From the NCBI RefSeq assembly GCF_009725235.1, contig NZ_WJFC01000057.1:3004-67003 (forward strand): a stretch of 64,000 nucleotides of DNA, written 5' to 3'. The notes under the pieces were generated by a model. It did no database searches, was not told the origin of the DNA, and saw only the letters and a list, made by a program, of their open reading frames with translations. Every line of letters starts with the position of its first letter. Within the stretch, counting starts at the first letter, position 1. A program made the position numbers and the translations under genes. Below are positions 27,773-44,668 of this stretch, in pieces. The DNA comes from Scytonema sp. UIC 10036. Lineage in GTDB: Bacteria; Cyanobacteriota; Cyanobacteriia; Cyanobacteriales; Nostocaceae.

Positions 27773-28052
27773 AAACAGTTCTAATTTGTATTATGTAAAA
27801 GCCAACTCTATGAAATAGCAAGCCCAATACTTGTCGGTTAAACCTAAAAATGCGAAAACACGTAGGAACGAAACCCAACACTTACAGACATTTGTTGAAT
27901 TTTCTCACTTATCCCGCGCAACCCTCTCATCTCTTACCTCTGCGTCCTCTGCGTCTCTGCGGTTAAATAAATGATTTCTATGAATGTTAAATATATTCGG
28001 TTCATAGTTAAGATACATGCGCTAAAGCGCTACTACGAACCGAACATATTAG

Positions 28053-29453: not shown

Positions 29454-29459
29454 AGTAAT

Positions 29460-29541
29460 TTTGGATTTTGGATTTTGGATTTTGGATTTTGGATTTTAGA
29501 TTTTGGATTTTAGATTTTGGATTTTGGATTTTGGATTGGGG
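29460..29541. repeat. Heptamer tandem repeat (GGATTTT type)
   Basis: More than ten heptamer units of ttttgga with occasional ttttaga. STRR-like, as known in heterocystous cyanobacteria. Copies with the same heptamer occur at 32299-32334 and 33382-33440, flanking the first binding-protein gene. Confidence 0.9.
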
Positions 29542-29596
29542 TCAGAGACCAGGACTTAGAAGTTGGTCACTGGTCACTGGTCACTGGTCACTGTTA

Positions 29597-30592
29597 CTAT
29601 CTTCTCGAACGTCTGCGGAGGCGATCGATCATTACCGCGACAATAATTACCAGTCCTTTGACGACGAGTTGCCAGAAGTAAGACATATTCAACAAGGTCA
29701 AACCATTGTTGAGAACAGCAATGATTAATGCACCTAACAGTGTTCCGCCAATGGTGCCAATACCGCCTGTAAAACTAGTTCCACCTAAAATAACGGCAGC
29801 GATCGCGTCTAACTCGTAGCCTTGACCTAACATACCAGTGGCACTATAAAGACGGCTAGCACTCATAATTCCTGCCAAGCCTGCTAGCAATCCACTGACA
29901 CCGTAAACAAATAACAATACGCGGTTAACTTTAATACCAGTCAGTCGTGCTGCTCGTTCGTTACCACCAACAGCATAAATTTGTACCCCCAAAACAGTTT
30001 GTCGCAGGACAAACCAAGTAACGGCTACAGTGAGTAGGGCAATGATGACTAACCAGGGAAGGGGACCTAAATAGTTATTACCTATCCAAGCAAAATTTAT
30101 GTCGCGGTTAATAACCGTTGTACCGTTAGCAACCAAAAAGGCAGCACCCCGTAAAGCAGTTAGCGAACCTAAGGTGACAATAAACGGTGGTACATCCAAA
30201 AAGGTGATGAGAGCGCCGTTAACTAAGCCTAAAAACAATCCTGTGAGCAACCCAGCAGGTACAGCCGCCCAACCTAAAGCAGGAATTAGCGAGACTAACA
30301 CTGCAACTACAGCCGAAACAGCCAAGATTGACCCAACGGAAAGGTCAATACCTCCTGTGAGAATCACGAAGGTCATTCCCGTTGCCAGCACAATATTAAT
30401 TGATGCCTGACGCAATATGTTAACAACATTCCCGACTGTCAGGAAGTTGGGAGAAACGACCGTAAATAAGATGCAGATAAGTAATAATATTGGCAGAATC
30501 CCTGCAACCTCAAGCAGAGTATTAATCGGTTTGCGCTTGCGTGTTGCATTCTTGCCCACTTTATTATTAACAGGCTTTAAGGTTTGACTCAT
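29597..30592 (-). CDS. CUT2-family (ribose/inositol-type) ABC permease
   Basis: 331 aa, multi-spanning. The RbsC family pattern is clear: [17 protein letters not shown], then [12 protein letters not shown] and [17 protein letters not shown]. It forms a homodimeric membrane channel for a monosaccharide or inositol. The start overlaps the end of the ATPase reading frame by 4 bp. It belongs to a minus-strand group of two binding proteins, ATPase, permease and MFS protein, immediately beside the inositol oxygenase gene. Substrate is inferred. Confidence 0.93.
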
Positions 30593-32141
30593 GATGCTAC
30601 TACCTCCGATGCTCCAGTTGCATAGTGCATAATGTTTTCTTGGGTAATTTCTTTCCCAGAGCTGCCATCAAGTTCGCCCACTAACTTTCCTTCCCGCATC
30701 ACTAGGACGCGATCGCTCATCCCAACAATCTCTGGTAGTTCGCTGGAAACCATCAAAGTAGCCACGCCCTGTGCTGCTAACTCGCTCATAATTCGGTAAA
30801 TTTCGCTTTTGGACCGATATCTACACCCCGTGTCGGTTCATCCAACATGATGACTCTCGGTTTAATGGCTAACCACCTTGCTAGCAGTAGCTTCTGCTGA
30901 TTGCCACCTGAAAGATCCACCGCTCTGATTTCCAAATTAGCGAGCCGGATATTAAAGTTTTCCACTGCTTCTGTAGCCAGCTTATTCACTGAACCCCAGT
31001 TAACAACACCGGCTTTTGCATCCTCCTTAAGTGTGTTGAGGGCAATATTCTTGCGGGAACTCATTTCCAGAAATAAACCCTGGTCTTTGCGGTCTTCCGG
31101 GACGTAACCAATCCCGGCTGCAATGGCATCACTGGGGCTATGAATATCTAATTTGTGACCGTTTAAGAAAACTTCACCACTTGCTTTAGGGTCAGCACCA
31201 AAAATGAGCCGACACACCTCCGTGCGTCCTGCACCCACCAGCCCTGCTAGTCCGAGAATTTCTCCAGCACGAATTTTAAAACTAGCTGGCTCAATCTTGC
31301 GTCCGTCGCTCATATTTCTGACTTCTAGCACTACCGCACCTGGATTGGTTTGCCGTTGATGCTCGTAAAAGTCTTGCATGGAACGACCCACCATCATCTG
31401 CACCAATCGCTGTGGAGATATTTCATCCCGTGTTAAACTACCAATGTATTGACCATCGCGCAGTACGCTAATTCGGTCAGCTAGGGCATATATTTCTTCC
31501 ATGCGGTGGCTGATGTAGATAATTGCAATGCCATCATTCCGCATTTTGCGAACAATTTCAAACAAACGCTCGGTTTCGCGATCGGACAGTGCGGCGGTTG
31601 GCTCATCCATCACTAAAATGCGGCTTTTATCCTTCAACGCCCGCGCAATTTCTACCTGTTGCTGTTCGGCGATAGACAAAGTACCAACCACATCGTTAGC
31701 TCCAAAGCTAGCTCCAAGGCTTTCTAGCACTTGCTCTGCTTCCAGTTGCATACCTTTGCGGTCTAAAAACTGACCCCGTCGCAACTCGCTACCCATAAAA
31801 ATATTTTCGGTAACGGTTAAGTTGGGTGCGACATTCAGTTCTTGATAAATGAGATTAATGCCCGATCTGCGTGCTGTACCCGGATCGGTAATTTTTACGG
31901 GTTCGCCATTGATGCGAATTTCTCCTTCATCAGCGATGTAAGCCCCAGCCAGGATTTTCATCAAGGTGCTTTTACCCGCCCCGTTCTCACCCATCAGGGC
32001 GTGAACTTCTCCTGGATAAATCGTGAGATTCACGTTTTGGAGAGCAGGTACACCATGAAATCGTTTCGTAATCCCTTGCATTTCCAATACAGGGGTAGTG
32101 GTAGATGCGTGAGGAAACAGGGTTTCAGTGTGGTTGGTCAT
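30589..32141 (-). pseudogene. CUT2 ABC ATPase (RbsA-like), frameshifted
   Basis: The normal RbsA-type architecture is a double nucleotide-binding protein of about 500 aa. Here 451 codons run from 32141 and stop at 30786. The first Walker A is G-E-N-G-A-G-K-S-T; signature, Walker B and the second domain ([18 protein letters not shown]) are intact. The last about 66 residues lie in another frame, starting M-S-E-L-A-A-Q-G at 30789. The normal sequence I-Y-R-I-M-S-E-L is restored if one base is added near 30801-30806, so a 1-bp deletion is the likely cause. The two frames overlap as ATGA, so translational coupling could still produce both parts. It may be a true mutation or a sequence error. Confidence 0.82.
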
Positions 32142-32206
32142 TTGTCATTTGTTATTGGTCATTTGTCAGTGGTCATTTGTCATTTGTTGTTGGTCGTTGG
32201 TAAGGG
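32134..32206. repeat. Degenerate heptamer repeat (GTCATTT type)
   Basis: Array of ggtcatttgtcatttgtta-like units just upstream of the ATPase start. STRR-like; it may separate the binding-protein and ATPase transcription segments. Confidence 0.75.
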
Positions 32207-32298
32207 TTTTAAAAACATTTACATTTTGTAATGTGATTGTGTTTATTTCCACCTACCTACTTAGTTGGCTGAAAACAACCTCGTTGAAACTCTTTCAA

Positions 32299-32334
32299 TC
32301 CAAAATCCAAAATCTAAAATCCAAAATCTAAAAT
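32299..32334. repeat. Heptamer tandem repeat (TCCAAAA type)
   Basis: About five units of tccaaaa/tctaaaa directly after the stop codon of the first binding-protein gene; the same heptamer as at 29460 and 33382. Confidence 0.85.
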
Positions 32335-32338
32335 TGTA

Positions 32339-33364
32339 TTACCAGCCTTTGTAAGTACCGACGTTCTCTCTGGTAATTAACTTGACTGGAATTAGAATGT
32401 TAGGATTGCTGGGTTTTTTGCCATGCAGGATGTTGTTGCCAACCTCAACCGCTTTTTGAGTCATCCCTCTTGGATCTTGAGTCGCAGTTGCAGCATAGAG
32501 ACTGTTTTTAGATGCGATCGCTTCGATGGCTTCTGGAGCACCATCAACCCCAACAATGAAAAAGTCTTTGCGTTTTGCTTGACTGGCTGCGAGGTCTACT
32601 CCAACACCGCTCGGATCGTTAATGGCAAAGACTGCATCTATCTTAGGGAAGGTTGTGAGCAAATCGCTCATCACTCTCAGCCCTCCATCTCTGCTTCCTT
32701 CTGCGTTCTGGTCTTTTGAGAGGACTTTTATACCGGGATTCTTAGACAAGACTTTTTCGCAACCACTGACTCGATCGATCACTGAGGCGACTGGGGGACC
32801 GTTGACGATGACCACATTACCTTTGCCTTTGAGGCGATCGACAATGTATTGACAACTTACCTCTCCTGCTTGCACGTTATTGGTAGTTACTGTGGCATCC
32901 ACTTCTCCACTAATGGCTGTATCTACCGCAATGACTATCTTACCTGCTTGTCTTGCTTTCTCAACGGCTGGTGTAATTCCCTTACTATCAGCAGCATTCA
33001 AGATAATGATGTCAGTATCAGCAGCAACGAAATTTTCGATTTGGTTGGTTTGTTGGTTGAGATCGTAGCCACTGGATACCACAGTCACCTTGACATCATC
33101 ACCTCCGATTTTTCTTGCTTCTTTCTCAGCACCTTTCCCCATCAGAACAAAGAAGGGGTTACTTAAATCGCCAAGAGTAACGCCGACAGATTGTAATTTT
33201 TTGGCATCACCACCATCTTGAGTTTGTACGCTAACGTTGGTAGCAGTGTTGGTATCAGTGTTAGTAGCGGTGTTGTCGTTGGGAGCCGTATTTGTGCATC
33301 CTACAATAGCACCACTGATGATACTTAATACACTAGTGACAGTTGCAATCCTTTTCACATTCAT
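32339..33364 (-). CDS. CUT2 periplasmic sugar/polyol-binding lipoprotein, copy 1
   Basis: I start it at ATG 33364 (341 aa), where GAGGAG stands just upstream. The 22-residue extension to 33430 is only the translation of a heptamer repeat. A lipoprotein signal ends in I-V-G-C (lipobox). The mature part is a type I periplasmic-binding fold: S-V-G-V-T-L-G-D-L-S-N-P-F-F, N-Q-I-E-N-F-V-A-A-D-T-D-I-I-I-L and D-A-V-F-A-I-N-D-P-S-G. It resembles ribose/inositol-binding proteins. A paralogue follows at 33446. Two binding proteins sharing one permease may widen the substrate range. Confidence 0.92.
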   Translation of the reverse strand: MNVKRIATVTSVLSIISGAIVGCTNTAPNDNTATNTDTNTATNVSVQTQDGGDAKKLQSVGVTLGDLSNPFFVLMGKGAEKEARKIGGDDVKVTVVSSGYDLNQQTNQIENFVAADTDIIILNAADSKGITPAVEKARQAGKIVIAVDTAISGEVDATVTTNNVQAGEVSCQYIVDRLKGKGNVVIVNGPPVASVIDRVSGCEKVLSKNPGIKVLSKDQNAEGSRDGGLRVMSDLLTTFPKIDAVFAINDPSGVGVDLAASQAKRKDFFIVGVDGAPEAIEAIASKNSLYAATATQDPRGMTQKAVEVGNNILHGKKPSNPNILIPVKLITRENVGTYKGW

Positions 33365-33381
33365 CTTGCTCCTCAACTTTA

Positions 33382-33440
33382 AATCCAAAATCCAAAATCC
33401 AAAATCCAAAATCCAAAATCCAAAATCCAAAATCCAAAAT
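33382..33440. repeat. Heptamer tandem repeat (TCCAAAA type)
   Basis: About eight perfect tccaaaa units between the two binding-protein genes. It extends the reading frame of copy 1 spuriously. Confidence 0.92.
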
Positions 33441-33445
33441 CGGTC

Positions 33446-34465
33446 TTACCAACCTTTGTAGCTACTAAGGTTGTTTCGAGTTACCAACTTAACTGGAATT
33501 AGAATCGTGGGTATTTCCGGTTTGTCCCCGCGCAGAATATCATTGCCTACCCGAACAGCTTTTTGAGCCATTCCTGCTGGATCTTGAGCAGCCGTTGCAA
33601 CAAATAGACTATCTTTGGTAGCCATCGCTTTGACTGCATCTGGTCCTCCATCAACCCCAACAATAAAAAATTCTTTGCGTCTTGCTTGCTGGGCTGCCAA
33701 GTCTGCTCCAATACCACTTTGATCGTTAGTAGCAAAAACAGCATCAATCTTGGGAAAGGTTGTCAGCAAATCGCTCATAACTCTTAGCCCTCCATCCCGA
33801 CTTCCTTCTGCGTTCTGGTCTTTAGAGAGTATTTTGATACTGGGATACTTGGATAATGCCTTCTCGCAACCTTTCACTCGCTGGATAACTGAGTCCATCG
33901 GAATGCTGTTCAGGATAACTACATTGCCTTTACCTTTCAAGCGATCGCCAATATACTGGCAAGCAAGTTCTCCCGCCTGTAGATTATTAGAGCTAACCAT
34001 TGCGTCTACATCTGCATCAACGGCTGCATCCACTGCAATGACAATTTTACCTGCAAGTTTTGCTTTGTCGATCGCTGCTTTAATTCCTCTGTTATCAACG
34101 GCGCTGAGGATAATTATGTCAGTATCGGCAGCAACGAAATTTTCTATTTGGTTGAATTGCTGGTTTAAGTCAAAGCCGCTAGAAACCACACTAATTCTGA
34201 CATCATCACCTCCGATTTTCTTCACTTCTGCCTCAGATCCTCTCCCCATAGCTACAAAGAAGGGATTACCCAAGTCGCCAAGGCTGACGCCAACCGAGCG
34301 CAATTTTACATCCTCATGGCTATCCTTAACTTCTATAACATTGCTACTATTTTGGAAGCCATTTATAGCACTTTCGGTATTTTGAGAGGTTTTTGTACAA
34401 CCTATAACAGTACTGCTAATGAGACCTATTACGCCGACTGCAAGCGAAATTCTTTTCACGTTCAT
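33446..34465 (-). CDS. CUT2 periplasmic sugar/polyol-binding lipoprotein, copy 2
   Basis: 339 aa. Signal with lipobox V-I-G-C, then a type I binding fold parallel to copy 1: V-G-V-S-L-G-D-L-G-N-P-F-F, F-V-A-A-D-T-D-I-I-I-L and N-A-E-G-S-R-D-G-G-L. The two share most conserved segments and arose by tandem duplication. This is the first gene of the minus-strand transporter series, so the promoter should lie in 34466-34700. No convincing copy of the LacI-type operator is seen there. Confidence 0.92.
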   Translation of the reverse strand: MNVKRISLAVGVIGLISSTVIGCTKTSQNTESAINGFQNSSNVIEVKDSHEDVKLRSVGVSLGDLGNPFFVAMGRGSEAEVKKIGGDDVRISVVSSGFDLNQQFNQIENFVAADTDIIILSAVDNRGIKAAIDKAKLAGKIVIAVDAAVDADVDAMVSSNNLQAGELACQYIGDRLKGKGNVVILNSIPMDSVIQRVKGCEKALSKYPSIKILSKDQNAEGSRDGGLRVMSDLLTTFPKIDAVFATNDQSGIGADLAAQQARRKEFFIVGVDGGPDAVKAMATKDSLFVATAAQDPAGMAQKAVRVGNDILRGDKPEIPTILIPVKLVTRNNLSSYKGW

Positions 34466-35398: not shown

Positions 35399-36295
35399 TT
35401 AAAACTTTAATGTTGCAGGCAAATACTTAGCCACTAAATCTTCATAATATGGTCTGAGTTCTTGCCAATTGGGAGGGTTGGGATTTTTGGAATACAAATC
35501 GTAGGGATTGAATAGCCTTACCCATTGAAACATTTGGCGATCGCGTTCATCCATCAAATGAGTGTAACCGTTTTCTCGGTGTTGGGGATAAAATGAATGA
35601 TAGCGGAGGATGTACAATGCAGGTTCGGGCAAATAGGGTTTCATCATGTGATAGAAATACTCGTCATGTCCCCATGACATATGTACTTGGCTTAACCCGC
35701 AATTAGGCTCGTAAATACCATATTTAGTGTTATATTTTGGGTTATTGTAATCGGGATTATTCTGGAAAAATTCAGAGAAAACAATTTTATCGGAAAATGC
35801 ACAACCTACAGGATAGGTATCGCCTACAGTAGCCCATTGGGGTTCCCCAAACAGACACAGTACTTTACCCATATCATGTAAGAAGCCTGTTAGTACCATC
35901 CAGTCAGGGTAACCATCAGCCCGAATAGCTTCTGATGTTTGCAACAAATGCTGTAATTGGTCTAAATCTGTATCAGGATCTGAATCATCCACCAATTGAT
36001 TCAAAAATTCAACTGCATCCCAAAAAGCCATTTCTTTCTTGTCAAACTTCAGAAATTCTGCTTTTTTTTGCAATACAAAGTCATATGTTTGGTTAATATG
36101 ATTTAACCGATAGAACTCTTTGACTGTATCTCTAGTTGGAGTTTCGTAATTCCTGTACTCTTGAGTGGTTTTACCCTCTTTAACTATGCTGTGCGGATCG
36201 GGATAGCGATTAAGTAAATCTTCTTCCCATTCTTCTAACGAATGTAAGGGATTGTTTTGAGCGAGTTCGATGGAATTATTGAGAGTTTGAAACAT
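35399..36295 (-). CDS. MIOX: Myo-inositol oxygenase
   Basis: 298 aa, full length. It catalyses O2-dependent ring cleavage of myo-inositol to D-glucuronate with a mixed-valent di-iron centre. All six iron ligands known from the mammalian enzyme have counterparts: His116 (Q-H-L-L-Q-T), His140-Asp141 (L-H-D-M-G-K-V), His210 (W-G-H-D-E-Y), His233 (Y-H-S-F-Y-P) and Asp266 (Y-D-L-Y-S-K). R-L-N-H-I-N-Q-T-Y-D-F-V and S-D-P-D-T-D-L-D are also family hallmarks. The enzyme is mainly eukaryotic and rarer in bacteria. Two palindromic operators stand 56-117 bp upstream. The neighbouring uronate isomerase would use its product. Confidence 0.96.
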   Translation of the reverse strand: MFQTLNNSIELAQNNPLHSLEEWEEDLLNRYPDPHSIVKEGKTTQEYRNYETPTRDTVKEFYRLNHINQTYDFVLQKKAEFLKFDKKEMAFWDAVEFLNQLVDDSDPDTDLDQLQHLLQTSEAIRADGYPDWMVLTGFLHDMGKVLCLFGEPQWATVGDTYPVGCAFSDKIVFSEFFQNNPDYNNPKYNTKYGIYEPNCGLSQVHMSWGHDEYFYHMMKPYLPEPALYILRYHSFYPQHRENGYTHLMDERDRQMFQWVRLFNPYDLYSKNPNPPNWQELRPYYEDLVAKYLPATLKF

Positions 36296-36350
36296 ATCTT
36301 CGCTGCTTTTGTAGTTGATATGAAATCGTAGTTTCAGGTTCTAATCGGTA

Positions 36351-36368
36351 TTGCACAGGTGTGCATAA
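36351..36368. promoter_or_regulatory. LacI-type operator O1
   Basis: Core GCACAGGTGTGC (36353-36364), one mismatch from the palindrome GCACACGTGTGC. It lies about 57 bp upstream of the inositol oxygenase start and 44 bp (centre to centre) from O2, a spacing compatible with cooperative binding. Confidence 0.75.
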
Positions 36369-36392
36369 ACTGTTTTTTCTTCTTATTTTTAT

Positions 36393-36412
36393 TTTTGCAC
36401 ACGTGTGCAAAA
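36393..36412. promoter_or_regulatory. LacI-type operator O2
   Basis: Perfect 20-bp palindrome TTTTGCACACGTGTGCAAAA upstream of the inositol oxygenase gene. The same core stands in front of the LacI-family regulator gene at 38375, which strongly suggests that regulator binds both. Confidence 0.85.
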
Positions 36413-36466
36413 GCGTGTATTAAGTTTTTTAACGAGTGGTTTACGGTAAACTATGGCTAAAATTGC

Positions 36467-37213
36467 TCAAGCTATCTGAAGCCCAATATCAAACGTTGCT
36501 GCGTAACCAAAGCTTGTTTTGGTAAGCGTGAGTAATAATTGCTCGCCACCGTCTCTGAAGATTCCATCTTGCGCGTTCTTTAGCCTGCGCTGTCCCTGAC
36601 TGGCATAGGGTGCCCGTGTATACACGCGCTCCGTAATAGAGTCATCAAAGTAGAGTTGTGAAGTAAACTCATAACTTTGCCTTGATGTTGCATCTGTACG
36701 TACTTTAAAGTGGATATGAACGGTTCTGCCCTGGTACCAACCGGGATAGATAGTCATAAACTGGACGCTGCCATTTGCGTCCGTCACCTGATACCCGCGC
36801 AAGAACTTTTTGCCAATGGTATTAAAACTTGGGTCTGTCACATCAGAATAAATGCCCTGGGCATCACAATGCCAAATATCAACAGTGGCACCTGTGAGTG
36901 GCGTACAGCCAGTACTGGTGACCTGAGAAACACGAAGCGTTAGTTTGAGCGGTACGCCGTCTTTCACCGAACCATCCGAAGGGTCAGATCGGATGTCGGA
37001 ACGTTTAAGCTTTTCCTCTACAAAATAAGGTCCCTCGGTCTGTTCCGGTCTGACAACACACCCAGGCAATGTGGCAGCACTTATTTGAGGAGATGTTTTA
37101 ACGGATACGCTTGATTCTGTCTGTGCGGACACGGACTTTCTAGGTATGCATACAGCAAGCACTGTAGATGCAATTACTTTAAATAGAGCTAGGGTTTTTC
37201 TTCTGCTTAACAT
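36467..37213 (-). CDS. Secreted intradiol ring-cleavage dioxygenase
   Basis: I start at ATG 37213 (248 aa), which gives a twin-arginine-like signal (S-R-R-K-T-L-A-L-F). The same frame is open to 37339, but those 42 codons include a toxin-gene remnant. The core matches protocatechuate 3,4-dioxygenase-like enzymes: G-P-Y-F-V, I-W-H-C-D-A-Q-G-I-Y-S-D and Y-P-G-W-Y-Q-G-R-T-V-H-I-H-F. The two Tyr and two His iron(III) ligands are present. Such single-subunit exported forms act on catechols of unknown origin. It lies between the inositol oxygenase and gluconokinase; a metabolic link with them is not evident. Confidence 0.88.
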   Translation of the reverse strand: MLSRRKTLALFKVIASTVLAVCIPRKSVSAQTESSVSVKTSPQISAATLPGCVVRPEQTEGPYFVEEKLKRSDIRSDPSDGSVKDGVPLKLTLRVSQVTSTGCTPLTGATVDIWHCDAQGIYSDVTDPSFNTIGKKFLRGYQVTDANGSVQFMTIYPGWYQGRTVHIHFKVRTDATSRQSYEFTSQLYFDDSITERVYTRAPYASQGQRRLKNAQDGIFRDGGEQLLLTLTKTSFGYAATFDIGLQIA

Positions 37214-37276
37214 TTTACTGACTTTGCGATCGCTGTTTTTCAAGACTAAATTTCTTATTGTACCCACTACAGAAAG

Positions 37277-37321
37277 CCTGACCAAAAAGCGCACGAGTGT
37301 GTTAGTTTCTAGTTCTTTCAA
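37277..37321 (-). pseudogene. VapC-type PIN toxin remnant (first 15 codons)
   Basis: TTG-initiated L-K-E-L-E-T-N-T-L-V-R-F-L-V-R corresponds to the invariant start of VapC PIN-domain toxins (usually L-D-T-N-x-L-V-R). It overlaps the antitoxin stop codon by one TGA, the normal layout. The catalytic Asp is changed to Glu, and after 15 codons homology ends and the dioxygenase upstream region begins. The rest of the toxin has been deleted. Confidence 0.65.
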
Positions 37322-37739
37322 GCAGAATCTCCTGCACACTGAGAAATCGCTGCTTCCATTTCTTCTAGAGAAATGGCTTTTCTGTCTGCTTCATATAGCA
37401 TCCGAGATAATTCTCTGACATCAATCTTAATAGGTTGTAAATAAACCTTGCCATCTTTGTCAATGACCAAATCAATCGAGTCCCCTGGTTGCAATTTGAG
37501 CCAAGAGCGAATTTCTAAAGGAATTGCAATTTGTCCGGAGTTGGTTAATGTTGTTAGAGGATGTTTGAAAAGTGGTTGGTTGTGATTTTAATCACATTAT
37601 TACCCCCCTTAGTCCCCCCTTGTAAAGGGGGGAAATAAGAAAAATTCGGTTCCCTCCCCTTTCCAAGGGGAGGGTTAGGGTGGGGTAAAAAATATTTAAT
37701 ACATCAATCATGACTTTTCAAACATCCTCTTAGTGCCAT
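37318..37739 (-). pseudogene. AbrB/VapB-type antitoxin interrupted by a MITE
   Basis: If 37557-37729 plus one TTA is removed, an 81-residue reading frame results with exact codon phase. It starts M-A-L-T-T-L-T-N-S-G-Q-I-A-I-P and contains L-Q-P-G-D-S-I-D-L. This is the AbrB-type fold of VapB/MazE antitoxins. The insertion falls after the third codon. The toxin partner is also reduced to a stub (37277-37321), so the pair is dead. Whether toxin loss came first cannot be told. Confidence 0.9.
37557..37729. mobile_element. 173-bp MITE with 17-bp terminal inverted repeats
   Basis: Ends are perfect inverse copies: GAGGATGTTTGAAAAGT (37557-37573) and its complement (37713-37729), flanked by the direct repeat TTA (37554-37556, 37730-37732). 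Its interior has two G/C-run palindromes and no gene. The TNA-type duplication and GAG ends fit the IS1031-like subgroup of the IS5 family, which is inference. It has split an antitoxin gene. Confidence 0.9.
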
Positions 37740-37836
37740 TTTTTGTTTCTAGAGATAAACGCTTTACAAAATTAGCGTTAAGCTGTCGCCTGGTGGTATT
37801 GACTTATTATTAATATACTGATAAAGCTAAAGTCAG

Positions 37837-38346
37837 CTAAATTCCCAAAACCATTCTAATGTTTTGTACAATTACCTGGGGTGGCTCGGCAACATCTATG
37901 TATATAGCATCTGATGGTTCTTCAAGTGTCTCAAATTGGCTGCTGAGCAATTTTTCGCTCATGTAATGATTTTGACGCTCGTGCAATCGCTGTTGAATCA
38001 ACTGGTAAGACCCCTTGAGGTACACTAGTTTGGTGCGATCGCTATCCAATACAAGATATTCGCGGTAGCTGTCTTTTAATGCGGAACAAGCCAATACCAC
38101 ATTCTTATTTTCCTGCAACCAGTGTTTAATAGCTGCCTGCAAATCTTGCAACCAGGGTTTTCGCTCCGCGTCACTGAGGGGGATACCACCTCGCATTTTC
38201 TCTATATTCTCTATCGAGTGGAAGTTATCAGCGTCACTAAATTCCCACTGTAAAGACTCTGCTAGCAGTTTTCCTATGGTAGTTTTGCCGACTCCTGAAA
38301 CACCCATTAAGATAATAATCATTGATTTGTAATTTGTCGATCGCAC
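37837..38346 (-). CDS. gntK: Gluconokinase
   Basis: 169 aa. P-loop kinase with G-V-S-G-V-G-K-T-T (Walker A), then the GntK family segment F-S-D-A-D-N-F-H-S and K-M-R-G-G-I-P-L-S-D-A-E-R-K-P-W-L. It phosphorylates D-gluconate with ATP to 6-phosphogluconate, feeding the oxidative pentose phosphate pathway. An internal ATG at 38322, giving a start right before I-I-I-L-M-G-V-S, is equally plausible. The gene is divergent from the LacI-type regulator with the O3 operator between them. It is the last step of the inferred inositol route. Confidence 0.93.
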   Translation of the reverse strand: MRSTNYKSMIIILMGVSGVGKTTIGKLLAESLQWEFSDADNFHSIENIEKMRGGIPLSDAERKPWLQDLQAAIKHWLQENKNVVLACSALKDSYREYLVLDSDRTKLVYLKGSYQLIQQRLHERQNHYMSEKLLSSQFETLEEPSDAIYIDVAEPPQVIVQNIRMVLGI

Positions 38347-38360
38347 TGTCTAAAATTTAC

Positions 38361-38366
38361 TATAAT
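38361..38366 (+). promoter_or_regulatory. Probable -10 box of the LacI-family gene
   Basis: Consensus TATAAT immediately upstream of operator O3. No matching TTGACA at the ideal spacing was found, so the promoter assignment is tentative. Repressor bound at O3 would block it. Confidence 0.45.
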
Positions 38367-38370
38367 ATAT

Positions 38371-38390
38371 TTATGCACACGTGTGCAAAA
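38371..38390. promoter_or_regulatory. LacI-type operator O3
   Basis: Core GCACACGTGTGC (38375-38386), flanked by TTAT and AAAA. It lies in the 63-bp gap between divergent gluconokinase and the LacI-family gene, next to a TATAAT. Likely autoregulatory and controlling both directions. Confidence 0.85.
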
Positions 38391-38409
38391 GAAAAATTAA
38401 GTATGACAA

Positions 38410-39444
38410 ATGAGCAAACGAAAAATTTCCATAGAAGATATTGCTCGAAGAGCAGGCGTTTCTCATTCCACGGTTTCACGCGCATTGCGAGATAACTCTC
38501 TCATTAGCCCTCAGGTGCGAGAGGAAATTAAGAAAATAGCGCGGGAAATGAACTATGTGCCTAATGCTGTAGCTCAAAGCCTGCAAAATAAACGCACGAA
38601 TACTATCGGAGTCGTCGTCACTTCCATCGCAGATCCCTTTTTTGCTGAGGTGGTAGAAGGAATAGAACAAGTAGCTAGAGCGGCGGGCTTGAGTGTGTTG
38701 TTAAGTACTTCACACCGAGATTTTGAGCAAGAAGTAGCAGCTATTGATAGTTTTCACCGCCGCCGGGTGGACGGTATCTTGGTAGCCGATTCGCGAATTA
38801 GCAAACACCATACACAGCAACTCGCGCAAATTGCCGTACCAATAGTTTTTCTCAATAGCCAGACTCAAGAGCAGCCCGAAATGTTTCACTTTGTTGCCAT
38901 AGACGACTGTTTGGGTGCGCGATTGGCTGTAGAGCATCTTTTGAGTCTAGGACATACCTCTATTGGATACTTGGGTGTAGGCGATCGCAGTAGATCGAAC
39001 CAGCTGCGCTTGGAAGGATATCGCATGACTCTGAGTGAAGCTGGTTTATCACCAAAGACTGATTGGGTGGCAATGAGTGATGAAGAATATGGCAGAACCA
39101 ACGATGTTGCGATCGGTCAACAACTGCTACCTACACTATTTAATAATGGCGTAACTGGCATTTTTTGTTATAACGACATGGTAGCCGTTGGAGCAATGCT
39201 TGCTTGTCAAGAGCTAGGTATTTCAGTACCGCAAGATTTAAGCCTAGTTGGATTTGATGGTATTGCACTGTCGCGTTACGTTACCCCGCCACTGACAACA
39301 GTTTGCCAACCAATGTTAGAACTTGGTCGCTCTGCTATGCAAATGTTACTTGATGTATTACAGGAAAAAAGTGTAGAAAATCTTGTTTTATCTCCTTTTC
39401 TAGTAAAACGAGGTAGCACTACAGAACCAATAATCAATGGCTAA
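38410..39444 (+). CDS. LacI-family transcriptional regulator
   Basis: 344 aa. N-terminal helix-turn-helix and hinge: I-E-D-I-A-R-R-A-G-V-S-H-S-T-V-S-R-A-L, then Y-V-P-N-A-V-A-Q-S-L. The periplasmic-binding-like effector domain has I-G-V-V-V-T-S-I-A-D-P-F-F and D-L-S-L-V-G-F-D-G-I-A. Family members are repressors released by a sugar-like ligand. Palindromes O1-O3 are the obvious targets; the ligand may be inositol, glucuronate or a later intermediate. It heads the plus-strand group lacI-type, uxaC, SDR and LarA-like gene. Confidence 0.95.
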   Translation: MSKRKISIEDIARRAGVSHSTVSRALRDNSLISPQVREEIKKIAREMNYVPNAVAQSLQNKRTNTIGVVVTSIADPFFAEVVEGIEQVARAAGLSVLLSTSHRDFEQEVAAIDSFHRRRVDGILVADSRISKHHTQQLAQIAVPIVFLNSQTQEQPEMFHFVAIDDCLGARLAVEHLLSLGHTSIGYLGVGDRSRSNQLRLEGYRMTLSEAGLSPKTDWVAMSDEEYGRTNDVAIGQQLLPTLFNNGVTGIFCYNDMVAVGAMLACQELGISVPQDLSLVGFDGIALSRYVTPPLTTVCQPMLELGRSAMQMLLDVLQEKSVENLVLSPFLVKRGSTTEPIING

Positions 39445-39525
39445 TTGCTAATGGCTAATTGCTAATGGCTAATTGCTAATGGCTAATTGCTAATGGCTAA
39501 TTGCTAATTGCTAATTGCTAATGAC
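39437..39525. repeat. Heptamer tandem repeat (GCTAATG/GCTAATT)
   Basis: About twelve heptamer units alternating gctaatg and gctaatt. It begins inside the last codons and stop of the LacI-family gene and fills the gap to uxaC. STRR-like. Confidence 0.92.
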
Positions 39526-39527
39526 AA

Positions 39528-40967
39528 ATGACAAATAACCAAAAAAATATGTTGACCAAAAAATGGAGTTTATCTCCTAATCGTTGCTTTGCTCCAGAAC
39601 CCGTTCAAAGACGGCTAGCCCATCAATTTTTTGAAACCATCTCTGCTCTACCGTTAGTCTGTCCTCACGGTCACGTAGATCCAGCCTTGTTAGCTAATCC
39701 AACCGCCCGTTTTGGGTCGCCGACCGAATTATTTATTATCCCCGATCACTACATTTTCCGCATGCTCTACAGTCGGGGTATATCTTTGCAAGCTTTGGGT
39801 ATCCCTACAAGCGATGGTTCGCCTGTAGAAACTGACCACCGCAAAATCTGGCAAATTTTCGCCGAACATTTTTACCTATTTCGGGGTACTCCATCGGGTT
39901 TGTGGTTGAAAGACGAACTTATTAACGTCTTTGGGGTGGATGAGCCTTTAAATGCTCGCAATGCTGGTTATATCTACGATTATTTAGAAAAGCAGTTAGC
40001 GTTACCAGCATTTTCACCTCGTGCTTTATTCAAACGCTTTAACATTGAAGTGCTTTGTACTACTGATGCAGCGAGCGATACTCTTGAGAACCATCAATCT
40101 CTCCACCAAGAAGGTTTTACTCAAATCAAACCTACTTTTCGACCAGATGCAGTGGTTAATCTAGACACTCCAAGTTGGCGCGAAAATCTGACTAAGCTAG
40201 AAAGCACTGTAGGACGAGAAATTAACACTTACGCTATTTTTATACAAATTTTAGAAGAACGTCGGGCTTTCTTTAAAAAAATGGGTGCGACGGCTACTGA
40301 CCAAAGTGCAGCTACACCTTATACTACGCGTCTTTCCGCGCAAGAAGCAGAAACGATTTTTGCAAGAGCATTAACTAACAAGCTAAATCCAGGTGATGCA
40401 GAGCGTTTTACTGGTCATATGTTCGTGGAAATGGCTCGTATGAGTGTGGAGGATGGGTTGGTGATGCAAATGCATTGCGGGATTATGCGTAATCATAATC
40501 CCGATATCTTTGAACGCTTTGGGTCTGACAAAGGTGCTGATATTCCTTTAAAAATAGAGTGGACTGAAAATCTGCGCCCTCTGTTGAACGCTTATGGTAA
40601 CAATTCACACTTTCACTTAATCCTGTTTGGATTGGATGAAAGCACTTATAGCCGCGAACTAGCTCCTCTTGCTGGTCATTATCCCGCAGTCTTGCTCGGT
40701 CCACCCTGGTGGTTTCACGATAGCGTAAATGGTATGGAGCGCTACTTCAATATGGTCATGGAAACGGCTGGGCTTTACAATACGGCAGGATTTAACGATG
40801 ATACACGGGCTTTTGTTTCCATTCCTGCACGTCATGCTGTCTGGCGGCGTGTTGCTTGTAACTGGATAGCTGGATTGGTTATGCGTGGATTGGTTGAGGA
40901 AGAAGAAGGCTATGAGATGGCTCAGGCTTTAGCTTACGACCTCGCTAAAGCTGCTTATAAACTATAG
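39528..40967 (+). CDS. uxaC: Uronate isomerase
   Basis: 479 aa (an alternative ATG at 39549 gives 472). It interconverts D-glucuronate and D-fructuronate. It is an amidohydrolase-superfamily enzyme: metal-site H-G-H (His47, His49) in C-P-H-G-H-V-D-P, followed by the UxaC segments F-I-I-P-D-H-Y, C-T-T-D-A-A-S-D, M-Q-M-H-C-G and the C-terminal V-W-R-R-V-A-C-N-W-I-A-G. It lies downstream of the regulator after a repeat spacer and upstream of the SDR gene. It would use the glucuronate made by the inositol oxygenase. Confidence 0.95.
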   Translation: MTNNQKNMLTKKWSLSPNRCFAPEPVQRRLAHQFFETISALPLVCPHGHVDPALLANPTARFGSPTELFIIPDHYIFRMLYSRGISLQALGIPTSDGSPVETDHRKIWQIFAEHFYLFRGTPSGLWLKDELINVFGVDEPLNARNAGYIYDYLEKQLALPAFSPRALFKRFNIEVLCTTDAASDTLENHQSLHQEGFTQIKPTFRPDAVVNLDTPSWRENLTKLESTVGREINTYAIFIQILEERRAFFKKMGATATDQSAATPYTTRLSAQEAETIFARALTNKLNPGDAERFTGHMFVEMARMSVEDGLVMQMHCGIMRNHNPDIFERFGSDKGADIPLKIEWTENLRPLLNAYGNNSHFHLILFGLDESTYSRELAPLAGHYPAVLLGPPWWFHDSVNGMERYFNMVMETAGLYNTAGFNDDTRAFVSIPARHAVWRRVACNWIAGLVMRGLVEEEEGYEMAQALAYDLAKAAYKL

Positions 40968-41010
40968 CGGTTCTCAGTTGAATCAAGTACAGATCGATCT
41001 GCGTCCATCC

Positions 41011-41047
41011 GCGTTCATCTGCGGTTCCATAACTTTTTTATGTATTG
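41011..41047. repeat. Dispersed repeat, forward copy
   Basis: The segment gcgttcatctgcggttcc, followed by ataacttttttatgtattg, recurs inverted at 44686-44724. It lies just upstream of the SDR start and creates a false 27-codon N-terminal extension. Confidence 0.85.
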
Positions 41048-41058
41048 AGGAATTATTA

Positions 41059-41907
41059 ATGCCAGACTTGATTTTGAATAAACTTTTTAGTCTGAAAGAC
41101 CGGGTAGCTGTGGTCACGGGAGGTTCTGGTGTGCTTGGTGGGGCTATGGCAGAAGGTTTGGCTCTTGCTGGAGCAAAAGTCGTTGTTTTAGGTCGCAATG
41201 AAGCACGGGCGGCTGCGATTGTGGCTGCGATTACTGCTAGCGGTGGAGAAAGCATGGCTGTGCTCGCAGATGTTTGCGATCGCTCTCAATTAGAAATAGC
41301 CAGAGCCTCTATTTTAAGACATTGGGGTCAAATAGACATCTTAGTCAACATGGCTGGTGGCAATATCCCCGCCGCCACCATTAATGCAGATGCTACTATT
41401 TTTGATATGCCACATAAAGCTTTTGAGGAAGTGGTTAGCCTCAACCTGATGGGGACTTTACTACCCAGCCAAGTCTTTGGTCAAGCAATGATCGAAAGAG
41501 ATGGAATGGATAGTCAACCCCACGGTTGTATTGTCAATATTTCTTCTATGTCCGCTACACGTGTTATCAGTCGCGTGGTTGGTTACTCAGCCGCTAAAGC
41601 GGGGATAGATAACTTTACACGATGGCTAGCTGTAGAACTCGCGCAAAAGTATGGAGCTGGGCTGAGAGTGAATGCGATCGCACCTGGTTTCTTTATAGGC
41701 GAGCAAAACCGAGATTTACTACTACATCCAGATGGCAGTTTAACCATTCGCGGGCAAAAAATCATTGAGCATACCCCAGCAGGTCGTTTTGGAGAACCAA
41801 ACGAATTACTCAGCACCTTAATTTGGTTGTGCAGTGCTGGTTCTAGTTTTGTCAACGGGGTAGTCGTGCCAGTAGACGGTGGGTTTAGTATTTATAGTGG
41901 AGTTTAA
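41059..41907 (+). CDS. SDR-type D-mannonate oxidoreductase (fructuronate reductase)
   Basis: Start chosen at ATG 41059, with GAGGA 7 bases upstream (282 aa). The frame opens at 40978, but that part is repeat sequence. The NAD(P)-binding motif is T-G-G-S-G-V-L-G-G, and the catalytic site has N-I-S-S-M-S and Y-S-A-A-K. Segments F-D-M-P, L-L-P-S-Q-V-F-G, P-G-F-F-I-G-E-Q-N-R and P-V-D-G-G-F-S-I-Y-S-G-V match SDR fructuronate reductases such as YjmF of Bacillus as I remember them. The reaction is fructuronate + NAD(P)H to D-mannonate. It is two bases from the LarA-like gene, so the pair is co-translated. Confidence 0.9.
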   Translation: MPDLILNKLFSLKDRVAVVTGGSGVLGGAMAEGLALAGAKVVVLGRNEARAAAIVAAITASGGESMAVLADVCDRSQLEIARASILRHWGQIDILVNMAGGNIPAATINADATIFDMPHKAFEEVVSLNLMGTLLPSQVFGQAMIERDGMDSQPHGCIVNISSMSATRVISRVVGYSAAKAGIDNFTRWLAVELAQKYGAGLRVNAIAPGFFIGEQNRDLLLHPDGSLTIRGQKIIEHTPAGRFGEPNELLSTLIWLCSAGSSFVNGVVVPVDGGFSIYSGV

Positions 41908-41909
41908 AA

Positions 41910-43166
41910 ATGTATTCAGCAGCCATAACTAACGGAATACTTTCCGAAGAAAAAGTTTCTCAGTTGGTTCATGAAGCTTTGGCAGACCCCAAGTTAGATG
42001 GACAGCGCATCCTAGTGTTAATTCCCGATGGAACTCGCTCTGCTCCCATTCCTCAAATGTTTCGATTGCTACACAAAGAATTGAGTGAGAGGGCTGTATC
42101 TCTGGATTTTTTGATTGCTTTGGGTACACATAATCCCATGAGTGAAGAACAAATCAATCGCTTGGTGGGAGTAACCCCCGAAGAGAGAGAAACAACTTTT
42201 AAAAAAGTTCGCATCTTTAACCATCTTTGGAATGAACCGGATACCTTTATTTCTTGTGGAGTTATTTCAGCTTCGGAAATAGGAGAAATCAGCAATGGAA
42301 TGCTGTATCAGCCAGTAGAAGTGAGGATTAACAAACTTGTAACAGAATACGATTTAATTGTTGTTTGCAGTCCAGTCTTTCCTCACGAAGTTGTTGGTTT
42401 TTCCGGTGGAAATAAATATTTTTTTCCTGGTATTAGTGGTCTGGAAGTCATCAATTTATCACACTGGCTGGGGGCATTAATTACCTGTTATGAAATCATT
42501 GGTACACCAGGAATAACACCCGTTCGGCGATTGATTAACCGAGCCGCCAGCCTAATTCCTACTCCAAAGCTTTGTTTGGCAATGGTAGTCGCACCAAAAA
42601 CGAATCAATTAGCTGGGCTTTACATCGAGAAACCAGAGGAAGCGTGGGAAGCGGCTTCACAATTATCAGCCAAACTGCATATCAAATACGTAGACAAGCC
42701 GTTTAAACAAGTGCTTTCTGTCATGCCCAAAATGTATGATGACATTTGGACAGCAGCTAAAGGAATGTACAAGCTAGAGCCTGTAGTGGCTGATGGAGGT
42801 GAATTAATTATATATGCACCTCACATTAGTGAGTTTAGCTATACACACGGTAAAATCTTGGCTGAAGTTGGCTACCACGTGCGAGATTACTTCCTCAAAC
42901 AGTGGGATAAATTCCAAGGTTATCCCGGTGGAGTACTAGCCCACAGTACTCACTTGAAAGGTATGGGTACTTTCGATCCTAAAAAAGGCGAACAAGCACG
43001 GATTCGTGTCACCCTAGCGACTGGTATTTCCCCCGAACGCTGTGCTGCTCATAACTTAAACTATTGCGATCCGGCTACCATTCGACCTACAGAATGGGCT
43101 AATCGGGAGAATGAAGGTATTTTGCTTGTGCCGAAAGCTGGCGAAATACTGTATCGTCTTAAGTAG
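41910..43166 (+). CDS. LarA-family nickel-pincer racemase/epimerase, candidate D-mannonate/D-gluconate 2-epimerase
   Basis: 418 aa, DUF2088/LarA fold. Active-site landmarks are kept: D40-G-T-R43, His74 (L-G-T-H-N-P-M), His159 (F-P-H-E-V-V-G), Lys169 in S-G-G-N-K-Y (the lysine that binds the pincer cofactor in lactate racemase) and His185. The His-Lys-His spacings (10 and 16) equal those of lactate racemase LarA. The family includes racemases of lactate, malate and others, and to my knowledge gluconate 2-epimerases. The gene is two bases downstream of the mannonate oxidoreductase, and no mannonate dehydratase gene is nearby. Substrate is inferred from context. Cofactor-synthesis genes larB, larC and larE are not in the window. 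Confidence 0.85.
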   Translation: MYSAAITNGILSEEKVSQLVHEALADPKLDGQRILVLIPDGTRSAPIPQMFRLLHKELSERAVSLDFLIALGTHNPMSEEQINRLVGVTPEERETTFKKVRIFNHLWNEPDTFISCGVISASEIGEISNGMLYQPVEVRINKLVTEYDLIVVCSPVFPHEVVGFSGGNKYFFPGISGLEVINLSHWLGALITCYEIIGTPGITPVRRLINRAASLIPTPKLCLAMVVAPKTNQLAGLYIEKPEEAWEAASQLSAKLHIKYVDKPFKQVLSVMPKMYDDIWTAAKGMYKLEPVVADGGELIIYAPHISEFSYTHGKILAEVGYHVRDYFLKQWDKFQGYPGGVLAHSTHLKGMGTFDPKKGEQARIRVTLATGISPERCAAHNLNYCDPATIRPTEWANRENEGILLVPKAGEILYRLK

Positions 43167-43759: not shown

Positions 43760-44668
43760 ATGGTGCAACAATTGCCCGTGTTAACAAGCTGTTATATCGT
43801 AGGAGCGATCGCCCTCCTATCCGCTCAGCCTGTATGGGCTGAAATGAACCAAGTCACTGATGTTACCGTCAATCCTGCTAAAGAAGGAATTGAGGTTATC
43901 TTGCAGACAACAAGCCCCAAGTTGTCAAAAGTTGTTAGCTCTACCTATGAAAAGACTTATATCGCTGAACTGACAAATACCCAACTGCGTTTGGAGTCAG
44001 GAAAACCTTTTAATGTCAGCAATCCTGCTAATGGTATCACTAGTGTTACCGTCACTTCCTTCAATACCAGTAGTGTACGTACTGTAGTGACTGGTATTGA
44101 TAGTCCACCTGCCGTTAAGATAGAACAAAGTGATGGTAACTTGGTGCTGACAGTAGCTGCACCAGCACAGACATCTGCAAGCGCTGAACCACAAGAACTC
44201 ACCGCAAAACAAGAACAAGAGTCAGATATTGAACTGAGTGTTACCGCCAATCGCCCCACGACTCTTCTACGGGAAATACTAGCGACGGTAGACATCAAAA
44301 CAGAAGAGGAACTGGAGAGGGAAGAAGCCCTTCCTCGGACTGTTGGCGAACAACTGCAAGCTTTTCCAGGAATTGTTATTAACCGTTTGGGTGTGTTGAG
44401 TGGTTCTGCTAACGTTCGCGGATTGACAGGAGAACGGATTGGCGTACTGGTGGATGGGGAAAGCTTACCGAATTTAGAATTTGGTCTGGATTTGGGAAGC
44501 GATCCCTTTCGAGTCGAACGATTAGAAGTTCTTAAAGGTTCGGCGTCATCTATTTACGGTGCTGATGCTTTTGGAGGTGTGATTAGTATTATTACTACGA
44601 CTCCCAAACCGGATGCACCTTTTGGCGTCCGTGCTTTTGCATTTGGCGGTGGATTTGTACGTATATAG
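43760..44668 (+). pseudogene. TonB-dependent receptor, truncated after the plug domain
   Basis: 302 aa. A signal peptide ends near P-V-W-A-E, then an AMIN domain (about 30-135) and a linker. The plug domain (about 185-300) has T-V-G-E-Q-L-Q-A-F-P-G-I, the N-V-R-G-L strand and D-P-F-R-V-E-R-L-E-V-L-K-G-S-A-S-S-I-Y-G. Full cyanobacterial siderophore receptors have over 800 residues; here the beta-barrel is missing altogether. The stop is followed within 20 bases by a dispersed repeat (44686-44724), so the remainder was probably lost by recombination. It cannot form a channel. Confidence 0.88.

Follow-up and report, generated by a model that had tools for sequence, protein, structure and literature searches.

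What does hrmA, a symbiosis gene named in 1997, do? The question is raised by a gene cluster in a 64,000-nt stretch of DNA from Scytonema sp. UIC 10036 (contig NZ_WJFC01000057.1, positions 3,004–67,003; this whole stretch is hereafter the window). All five enzymes of a possible chain from myo-inositol to 6-phosphogluconate are encoded within window positions 35399–43166, and we consider it probable that this locus, the hrm locus, encodes a complete five-step route between the two compounds. A previous reading, made from the sequence alone, had proposed such a chain and had seen no mannonate dehydratase (uxuA), 2-keto-3-deoxygluconate (KDG) kinase (kdgK) or aldolase in the cluster. Curated-profile scans agree on both counts: four of the enzymes pass curated cut-offs, the LarA homologue passes that of Lar_N, and neither uxuA, kdgK nor an aldolase is found among the scanned genes of the cluster. 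The genes concerned are as follows.

35399–36295, minus strand: hrmE, myo-inositol oxygenase (inositol + O2 to D-glucuronate); MIOX PF05153, 366.6 bits against a cut-off of 25, E 8.6e-110, profile positions 2–249 of 249.
37837–38346, minus strand: hrmK, gluconokinase of the GntK/IdnK type (gluconate to 6-phosphogluconate); TIGR01313, 155.4 bits against a cut-off of 113.75.
38410–39444, plus strand: hrmR, LacI-family regulator; PF00356 and PF13377.
39528–40967, plus strand: hrmI, uronate (glucuronate) isomerase; NF002794, 488.9 bits against a cut-off of 387.
41059–41907, plus strand: hrmU, D-mannonate oxidoreductase (fructuronate to mannonate) of the short-chain dehydrogenase/reductase (SDR) family; NF006132, 380.9 bits against a cut-off of 281.
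41910–43166, plus strand: hrmA (named by position), LarA-superfamily protein, predicted nickel-pincer-nucleotide (NPN) D-mannonate/D-gluconate 2-epimerase; Lar_N PF09861, 78.7 against a cut-off of 23.3.

hrmI, hrmU and hrmA are co-directional, and hrmE (MIOX) and hrmK (GntK) lie on the opposite strand. The hrmU open reading frame (ORF) as listed begins with TTG at 40978; the NF006132 match begins at residue 33 of this long ORF, and the in-frame ATG at 41059 is likely the true start. From the hrmI stop to this likely start there are 91 bases, and 2 bases separate hrmU from hrmA.

In the proposed route, HrmE would oxidise myo-inositol with O2 to D-glucuronate, HrmI would isomerise this to D-fructuronate, HrmU would reduce it to D-mannonate with a reduced nicotinamide cofactor, HrmA would convert D-mannonate to D-gluconate in the manner of the epimerase GntE, and HrmK would use ATP to form 6-phosphogluconate, which could enter the oxidative pentose phosphate pathway through 6-phosphogluconate dehydrogenase (Gnd). 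Within HrmA, the NPN would take a hydride from C2 of mannonate and return it to the other face, H74 and H159 serving as the acid/base pair. Judging from the families, one reduced nicotinamide, one ATP and O2 would be spent, and NADPH would be returned at Gnd. Repression of hrmE and hrmRIUA would be exerted by HrmR at a shared palindrome and lifted by a uronate-like inducer. Flux presumably runs in the direction written, and hormogonium repression might act through this flux or through one of its intermediates.

hrmE, hrmK, hrmR, hrmI, hrmU and hrmA all occur together in the window, and their families and order agree with those given in the legend to Fig. 6 of PMC5987646. The cluster is accordingly the Nostoc hormogonium-regulating (hrm) locus, here in another Nostocales genome. 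The LarA homologue is named hrmA since it lies directly after hrmU, where hrmA should lie; the name thus rests on position. Nostoc punctiforme NIES-2108 (L032) has the same arrangement, with a LarA homologue 88% identical to the window protein. Among 31 Nostocales loci fetched through the LarA homologue, the SDR is present in 30, UxaC in 29, LacI in 29, GntK in 28 and MIOX in 21. The missing genes fall at contig ends or, for the MIOX of L001, L012 and L018, elsewhere in the genome (this genome check covered the loci without a local MIOX other than L019 and L025). Chance clustering was ruled out, as the SDR precedes the LarA homologue in 30/31 of these loci. The route put forward in the sequence-only reading is supported. 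What that reading missed is that the locus was already known, and it did not name the LacI regulator or the intradiol-dioxygenase-like gene that stand within it.

Symbiotic Nostoc uses the hrm locus to control its motile filaments (hormogonia), and hrmA is listed as "unknown" (PMC5987646). HrmR represses hrmR and hrmE by binding both promoters, a plant factor lifts the repression, and the likely ligand is a galacturonate-like compound (PMC5987646). hrmA induction serves as a readout of the plant signal in Nostoc symbioses. As far as their accessible text goes, the hrm and hormogonium papers found by full-text search give no biochemical function for hrmA. A search for Nostoc with "lactate racemase" returned no paper and one for hormogonia with "mannonate" returned PMC5987646 only, in both cases with the subscription literature mostly outside reach. 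Protein databases call the HrmA homologues "lactate racemase domain-containing" or "nickel-dependent lactate racemase".

HrmA is predicted to have a LarA fold over its full length, and its closest solved structure is 4NAR, the GntE2 of Thermotoga maritima (E 3.2e-66, 227 bits, residues 11–418); the next solved structure matches with 38.5 bits (E 5.2e-9). The two proteins share 139 of 387 aligned residues (36%). GntE activity was demonstrated in 2020: GntE2 converts D-mannonate to D-gluconate with the NPN, and its key residues have been named (PMC7583248). The NPN and catalytic residues named for GntE2 are kept in HrmA as D40, R43, H74, H159, K169, H185 and K284, the counterparts of LarA D72, R75, H108, H174, K184, H200 and K298. 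Together with E160, V161 and W280 they are invariant in 52 sequences; over 81 sequences the departures amount to one Y at H74 and one gap each at D40 and R43. When compared with the text of PMC7583248, the GntE signature (E-V/S after the catalytic histidine and a W in alpha-11) is found as E160, V161 and W280 in 81/81. For the A/V feature of alpha-14, V342 and A344 (81/81) would fit, but the alpha-14 residue given in that text, N348 of GntE2, is G341 in HrmA. An AlphaFold2 model of HrmA (mean pLDDT 88.6) superposes on 4NAR with a TM score of 0.88 and 2.6 Å, against 0.56–0.76 for lactate and malate racemases (lactate racemases 0.68–0.76; query-normalised). The identity of HrmA as a lactate or malate racemase was rejected on score, loop residues and fold.

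Some observations weigh against so close an equation with GntE. Two residues of the substrate region of GntE2, as given in PMC7583248, differ in HrmA: G286 is replaced by A283 and N348, in alpha-14, by G341. The best NCBIfam model for HrmA, NF052594 ("nickel-dependent putative hexonate epimerase", group 18), reaches 187.5 of 500 bits, so that HrmA stands beside the GntE groups, LarAH 18–20, and is not a member of curated group 18. GntE2 sits on a saturated branch (length 10) of the tree described below, so the tree gives it no placement, and no enzyme assay of HrmA was found in the literature covered. HrmA is nevertheless predicted to act on the pair D-mannonate/D-gluconate.

The order of the last two steps could also be the reverse, HrmK being a mannonate kinase and HrmA a 6-phosphomannonate 2-epimerase, with the same end product. 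Cell extracts of Lactobacillus suebicus do follow a kinase-first order, the kinase activity preferring mannonate (PMC6978723). Nevertheless, the assays of GntE1, GntE2 and LarAH15 used D-mannonate without a phosphate group, and E160, next to the catalytic histidine of HrmA, matches GntE2, which acts on free mannonate; a negative residue would be an unlikely phosphate site. We regard phosphorylation before epimerisation as quite unlikely.

The sequence-only reading had proposed looking in the genome for uxuA, kdgK and kdgA and for larB, larC and larE. We did so in 17 Nostocales relatives carrying the locus (17 of the 31 loci, all from genomes other than the window's own), and the results there agreed with that reading. 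UxuA was found in none of the 17, the same search being positive in five controls that include E. coli, B. subtilis and Thermotoga; Gnd was found in all 17. PfkB and MR_MLE proteins were classified in one genome, NIES-2108. Of the five PfkB proteins there, two are identified over cut-off, as a ribokinase and as ThiD, the remaining three exceed no cut-off, and none attains that of a KDG kinase. MR_MLE gave three matches, of which two are over cut-off as MenC and enolase and the third, below cut-off, is DgcA-like; none reaches the ManD threshold, the DgcA-like protein giving 51.7 of 550 bits. Because UxuA is found in 0/17 and Gnd in 17/17, mannonate is without a visible way to KDG in the relatives, while 6-phosphogluconate has a sink.

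The same genomes also supply what can be said for a KDG route through an unrecognised mannonate dehydratase elsewhere. 2-keto-3-deoxy-6-phosphogluconate (KDPG) aldolase is present in 17/17, although alone the aldolase makes no KDG. The highest KDG-kinase score among the five PfkB proteins, that of L114 from Nostoc, is a weak 99 of 400 bits, and three of the five PfkB proteins of the single genome classified are under all cut-offs. Set against the lack of UxuA in the 17 relatives and the ManD score and the identities of the MR_MLE proteins in NIES-2108, such a route appears highly improbable.

The cofactor would be at hand. LarB, LarC and LarE are over cut-off in 17/17 relatives, and HrmA is the sole Lar_N match in each of them, which makes it a likely NPN client. 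According to PMC11796402, NPN genes are widespread in cyanobacteria although LarA-like proteins are missing from most of them, and HrmA would offer a client for the cofactor. As a caution, the Synechococcus elongatus control has no Lar_N match, yet its LarC is over cut-off and LarB matches. The NPN genes are therefore permissive and not specific evidence.

Homologues 56–74% identical to HrmA occur in 49 distant loci from Chloroflexota, Thermomicrobiota, Acidobacteriota, Latescibacterota, Planctomycetota and Rhodothermota. Since ORF picking let antisense ORFs displace LarA in some loci, neighbours were counted by tblastn, where the best stretch had to cover more than 35% of the query and lie no further than 10 kb from the LarA homologue. 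The counts are lower bounds, many loci stopping at contig edges, and they include low-identity matches (UxaE in L079 at 30%, IolO in L078 at 27%); neighbour names rest on one or two representatives each, the FGGY representative being under all NCBIfam cut-offs. On these terms, an SDR of the mannonate-oxidoreductase type is present in 33 loci, Gnd in 20, UxaE in 17, IolO in 10, pyrophosphate-dependent phosphofructokinase in 9, FGGY kinase in 7, IolN in 6 and UxaC in 5; UxuA, searched with two queries, is found within 10 kb in 0/49. Gnd lies directly downstream of the LarA homologue in 12 of its 20 loci (midpoint +1.3 to +1.5 kb). A Gnd gene in this position fits a product of the LarA homologue that becomes 6-phosphogluconate. 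Along with GntE2 as the closest solved homologue, it lends support to the mannonate-to-gluconate epimerisation suggested from the sequence alone.

These neighbours also bear on the view, reported in the hrm literature, that the hrm genes make a metabolite inhibitor rather than serve carbon catabolism (PMC5987646). HrmA would then epimerise a uronic, aldaric or other 2-hydroxy acid into the hormogonium inhibitor. The two changed residues of the substrate region suit this idea, and so does PMC7583248, whose authors doubted that GntE1, a member of a group found in a uronic-acid context, natively acts on mannonate. A catabolic role, however, fits the presence of HrmK, which closes the route to 6-phosphogluconate, and of Gnd in the distant loci, and we judge a purely signalling function unlikely. 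Both views can hold if an intermediate of the route is itself the signal.

Not everything in the distant genomes is in line with the route. UxuA matches occur genome-wide in 10 of the 49, nine of them over cut-off (447 bits in G201, 209–211 bits plus a second piece in G215 and G221, weaker in the rest), and two of these genomes, G215 (L046) and G221 (L052), have Gnd by LarA. UxuA-like and HrmA-type proteins can thus share a genome. None of six UxuA-like stretches fetched from the ten genomes overlaps a LarA locus. In L061 (3043–4122) and L077 (12750–13829) a KDG-kinase-like PfkB kinase directly follows Gnd, perhaps a gluconokinase from a different family.

IolO at least 73% identical to the L042 protein is found in nine distant loci, L042 included, and six of the nine have IolN. 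In L033, L042, L043, L044, L050 and L051, IolN and IolO share the locus with the SDR and the LarA homologue. We take IolN and IolO, by their family names, to be enzymes of another inositol-degrading route, and there seems to be a second inositol-fed version, with a different upper half, in Anaerolineae and relatives. L029, from Thermomicrobiales, has the UxaC-SDR-LarA order of the hrm locus. In a midpoint-rooted tree of 60 proteins, which holds 10 of the 32 Nostocales LarA sequences (that of the window counted among the 32) and was built without GntE1, Nostocales form one clade (100/100) joined by one Thermomicrobiales and one Anaerolinea sequence (100/99). This may hint at lateral transfer.

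Two further features of the distant loci were recorded. In nine loci (L038, L052, L054, L056, L057, L058, L070, L073 and L079) the LarA homologue has nearby a gene of about 300 codons whose only match, a weak one, is to HAD; an NCBIfam scan of neighbours from L065 and L058, in which one HAD-like member of about 300 aa was tested, returned no family. In the Acidobacteriota loci L035, L036, L037 and L041, a molybdopterin oxidoreductase lies downstream of the LarA homologue.

Is inositol oxygenase part of the same system, given that hrmE is transcribed away from hrmIUA? A palindrome in the window bears on this.

36352–36365, no strand: imperfect copy of TGCACACGTGTGCA (1 mismatch), upstream of hrmE.
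36396–36409, no strand: palindrome TGCACACGTGTGCA, exact copy, upstream of hrmE, candidate HrmR operator.
38374–38387, no strand: palindrome TGCACACGTGTGCA, exact copy, hrmK/hrmR divergent intergenic region, candidate HrmR operator.

These two exact copies and one near copy are the three matches in the window (up to 2 mismatches), against 0.19 expected by shuffling. Upstream of hrmE the exact palindrome is found in 20/21 Nostocales loci, with a 1-mismatch copy in the remaining one; before hrmR it is exact in 21/29, with a 1-mismatch copy in the other 8. We then looked at 14 MIOX genes lying away from hrmA or in genomes that lack it, searching 600 bases upstream, or 324 where the contig ended. 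Four of them are 28–58 kb from hrmA on the same contig, five lie on a different contig, a separation that could reflect nothing more than a break in the draft assembly (in G148, GntK stands beside MIOX near a contig end), and five come from genomes without hrmA; the exact palindrome is upstream of all 14. Because it stays with hrmE lying away, inositol oxygenase and the rest of hrm would form one regulon, and retention of MIOX by linkage alone is a weakened reading. HrmR is reported to bind at the promoters of both hrmR and hrmE (PMC5987646), in line with the shared palindrome, which is probably the HrmR operator. One exact copy each was also seen in the non-cyanobacterial loci L033 and L039.

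We also searched a sample of 192 genomes of the family for hrmA and MIOX. hrmA was matched in 29 of these, by a full-length gene in 25, by a gene split in two in one and by remnants in three. MIOX was matched in 40, over cut-off in 39 and at full length in 34, and none of the 29 genomes matching hrmA lacks it. Eight genomes have a full MIOX and no intact hrmA, and in the 18–20 kb stretches opened from them hrmI and hrmU are absent, fragmentary or truncated. These observations hold for the stretches themselves, of which that of G107 begins at a contig edge and that of G074 surrounds the hrmA remnant and not MIOX. Joint loss or decay of hrmIUA fits one functional block. Here too there is evidence on the other side: a full MIOX occurs without an hrmA match in 5/192 genomes, three of which have GntK, and among the eight, hrmE survives in all and hrmK was seen in four (G105, G163, G035 and G174). 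The surviving hrmE and hrmK count against a strict all-or-none pathway. The stretches with decayed hrmIUA and surviving hrmE are L156–L163; in a ninth, L164 (G189), hrmI and hrmU are intact and the damage is confined to hrmA, which is split in two.

The persistence of hrmE where hrmIUA is missing or broken also lends something to a different entry point, namely that the true substrate is glucuronate or galacturonate supplied by the host or by the polysaccharide of Nostoc itself and that inositol is incidental. MIOX is found within 10 kb of the homologue in 0/49 distant loci, a result that also weighs against the hrm route as proposed, and the reported response of HrmR to a galacturonate-like compound (PMC5987646) would also suit uronate entry. 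On the other hand, MIOX accompanies hrmA in all 29 sampled genomes with a match, the palindrome stays with hrmE even at least 28 kb from hrmA or on another contig, and the nine distant loci with IolO, six of them with IolN, point to inositol again. Entry by uronates alone is possible, though doubtful.

The widest form of our proposal joins several claims: that HrmA is an NPN D-mannonate/D-gluconate 2-epimerase, that hrm is a shunt, fed by inositol or uronates, into the oxidative pentose phosphate pathway, that this shunt controls plant-induced hormogonium exit, that HrmA is a natural client of the cyanobacterial NPN pathway with nickel required for the symbiotic switch, and that the lower half also operates in Anaerolineae and relatives, below a different set of inositol-degrading steps. 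Taken as a whole, we see the chances that it holds as evenly balanced. If it does, starving cells of nickel or removing larB, larC or larE should have the same effect as mutating hrmA. With a candidate reaction given to hrmA, the role of the hrm locus becomes directly testable.

The surroundings of the chain contain the following genes, the uptake genes being named from profile scans.

36467–37339, minus strand: intradiol-dioxygenase-like gene, between hrmE and hrmK; PF00775.
26177–34465, minus strand: sugar-uptake genes beside the hrm locus, as listed below.
26177–27772, minus strand: OprB porin.
28053–29453, minus strand: MFS sugar porter.
29597–30592, minus strand: ABC permease.
30786–32141, minus strand: ABC ATPase, interrupted.
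32339–33430 and 33446–34465, minus strand: two sugar-binding proteins.

Nothing in the 31 Nostocales loci matches the intradiol-dioxygenase-like gene over half its length, and it is probably a local insertion outside the pathway; its N-terminus looks signal-like by eye. The porin, sugar porter and ABC genes resemble the porin, permease and frtA1A2BC set beside hrm (Fig. 6 legend, PMC5987646). The ATPase (30594–32141, minus strand) is a 451-aa product with a premature stop, a stretch resembling its missing C-terminal end being readable in another frame just downstream; this is a frameshift or a sequencing error. Soon after hrmA, the gene at 43760–44668 (plus strand) encodes an AMIN domain and a TonB-receptor plug, a barrel domain not being found in it, and is perhaps a truncated receptor gene.

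How does the proposed route compare with known systems? MIOX-dependent inositol use in general leads from inositol to glucuronate, with later steps ending in KDG. The hrm route shares the first step, and its later steps are predicted to end in 6-phosphogluconate, not KDG. The sequence-only reading knew of no such pathway in a cyanobacterium. The lower half is not new, since the sequence from mannonate through gluconate to 6-phosphogluconate was already proposed for Thermotoga by Rodionova et al. 2012 (cited in PMC6978723). The novelty lies in assigning a predicted reaction to hrmA, in placing an inositol entry under a common operator-like site and in a suggested connection with symbiosis. In the hexuronate network of T. 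maritima (aldH-pelB-gnd-uxaRED-gntEK), gntE, gntK and gnd share one operon and mannonate passes by the same intermediates to 6-phosphogluconate (PMC3750489). Unlike hrm, T. maritima also has a uxuA/KDG branch (kdgAK-uxuBA, PMC3750489; UxuA match in our control search), and it gave no MIOX match in the control search. The galacturonate pathway of L. suebicus likewise leads from a hexuronate through mannonate to 6-phosphogluconate without KDG; it differs in that mannonate is phosphorylated first and in that the epimerase gene was not identified there (PMC6978723). The GntE enzymes (GntE2 of T. maritima, 4NAR; GntE1 of Corynebacterium glutamicum; LarAH15) resemble HrmA in predicted fold, in catalytic, cofactor and loop residues and in the kinds of neighbours, namely fructuronate reductase, gluconokinase and 6-phosphogluconate dehydrogenase. 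HrmA, known from sequence and model, departs from them in its 36% identity to GntE2, its position outside the curated group-18 model and its two changed substrate-region residues. The hrm locus of N. punctiforme has the same gene families in the same order as the window, which differs from it by the intradiol-dioxygenase-like insertion.

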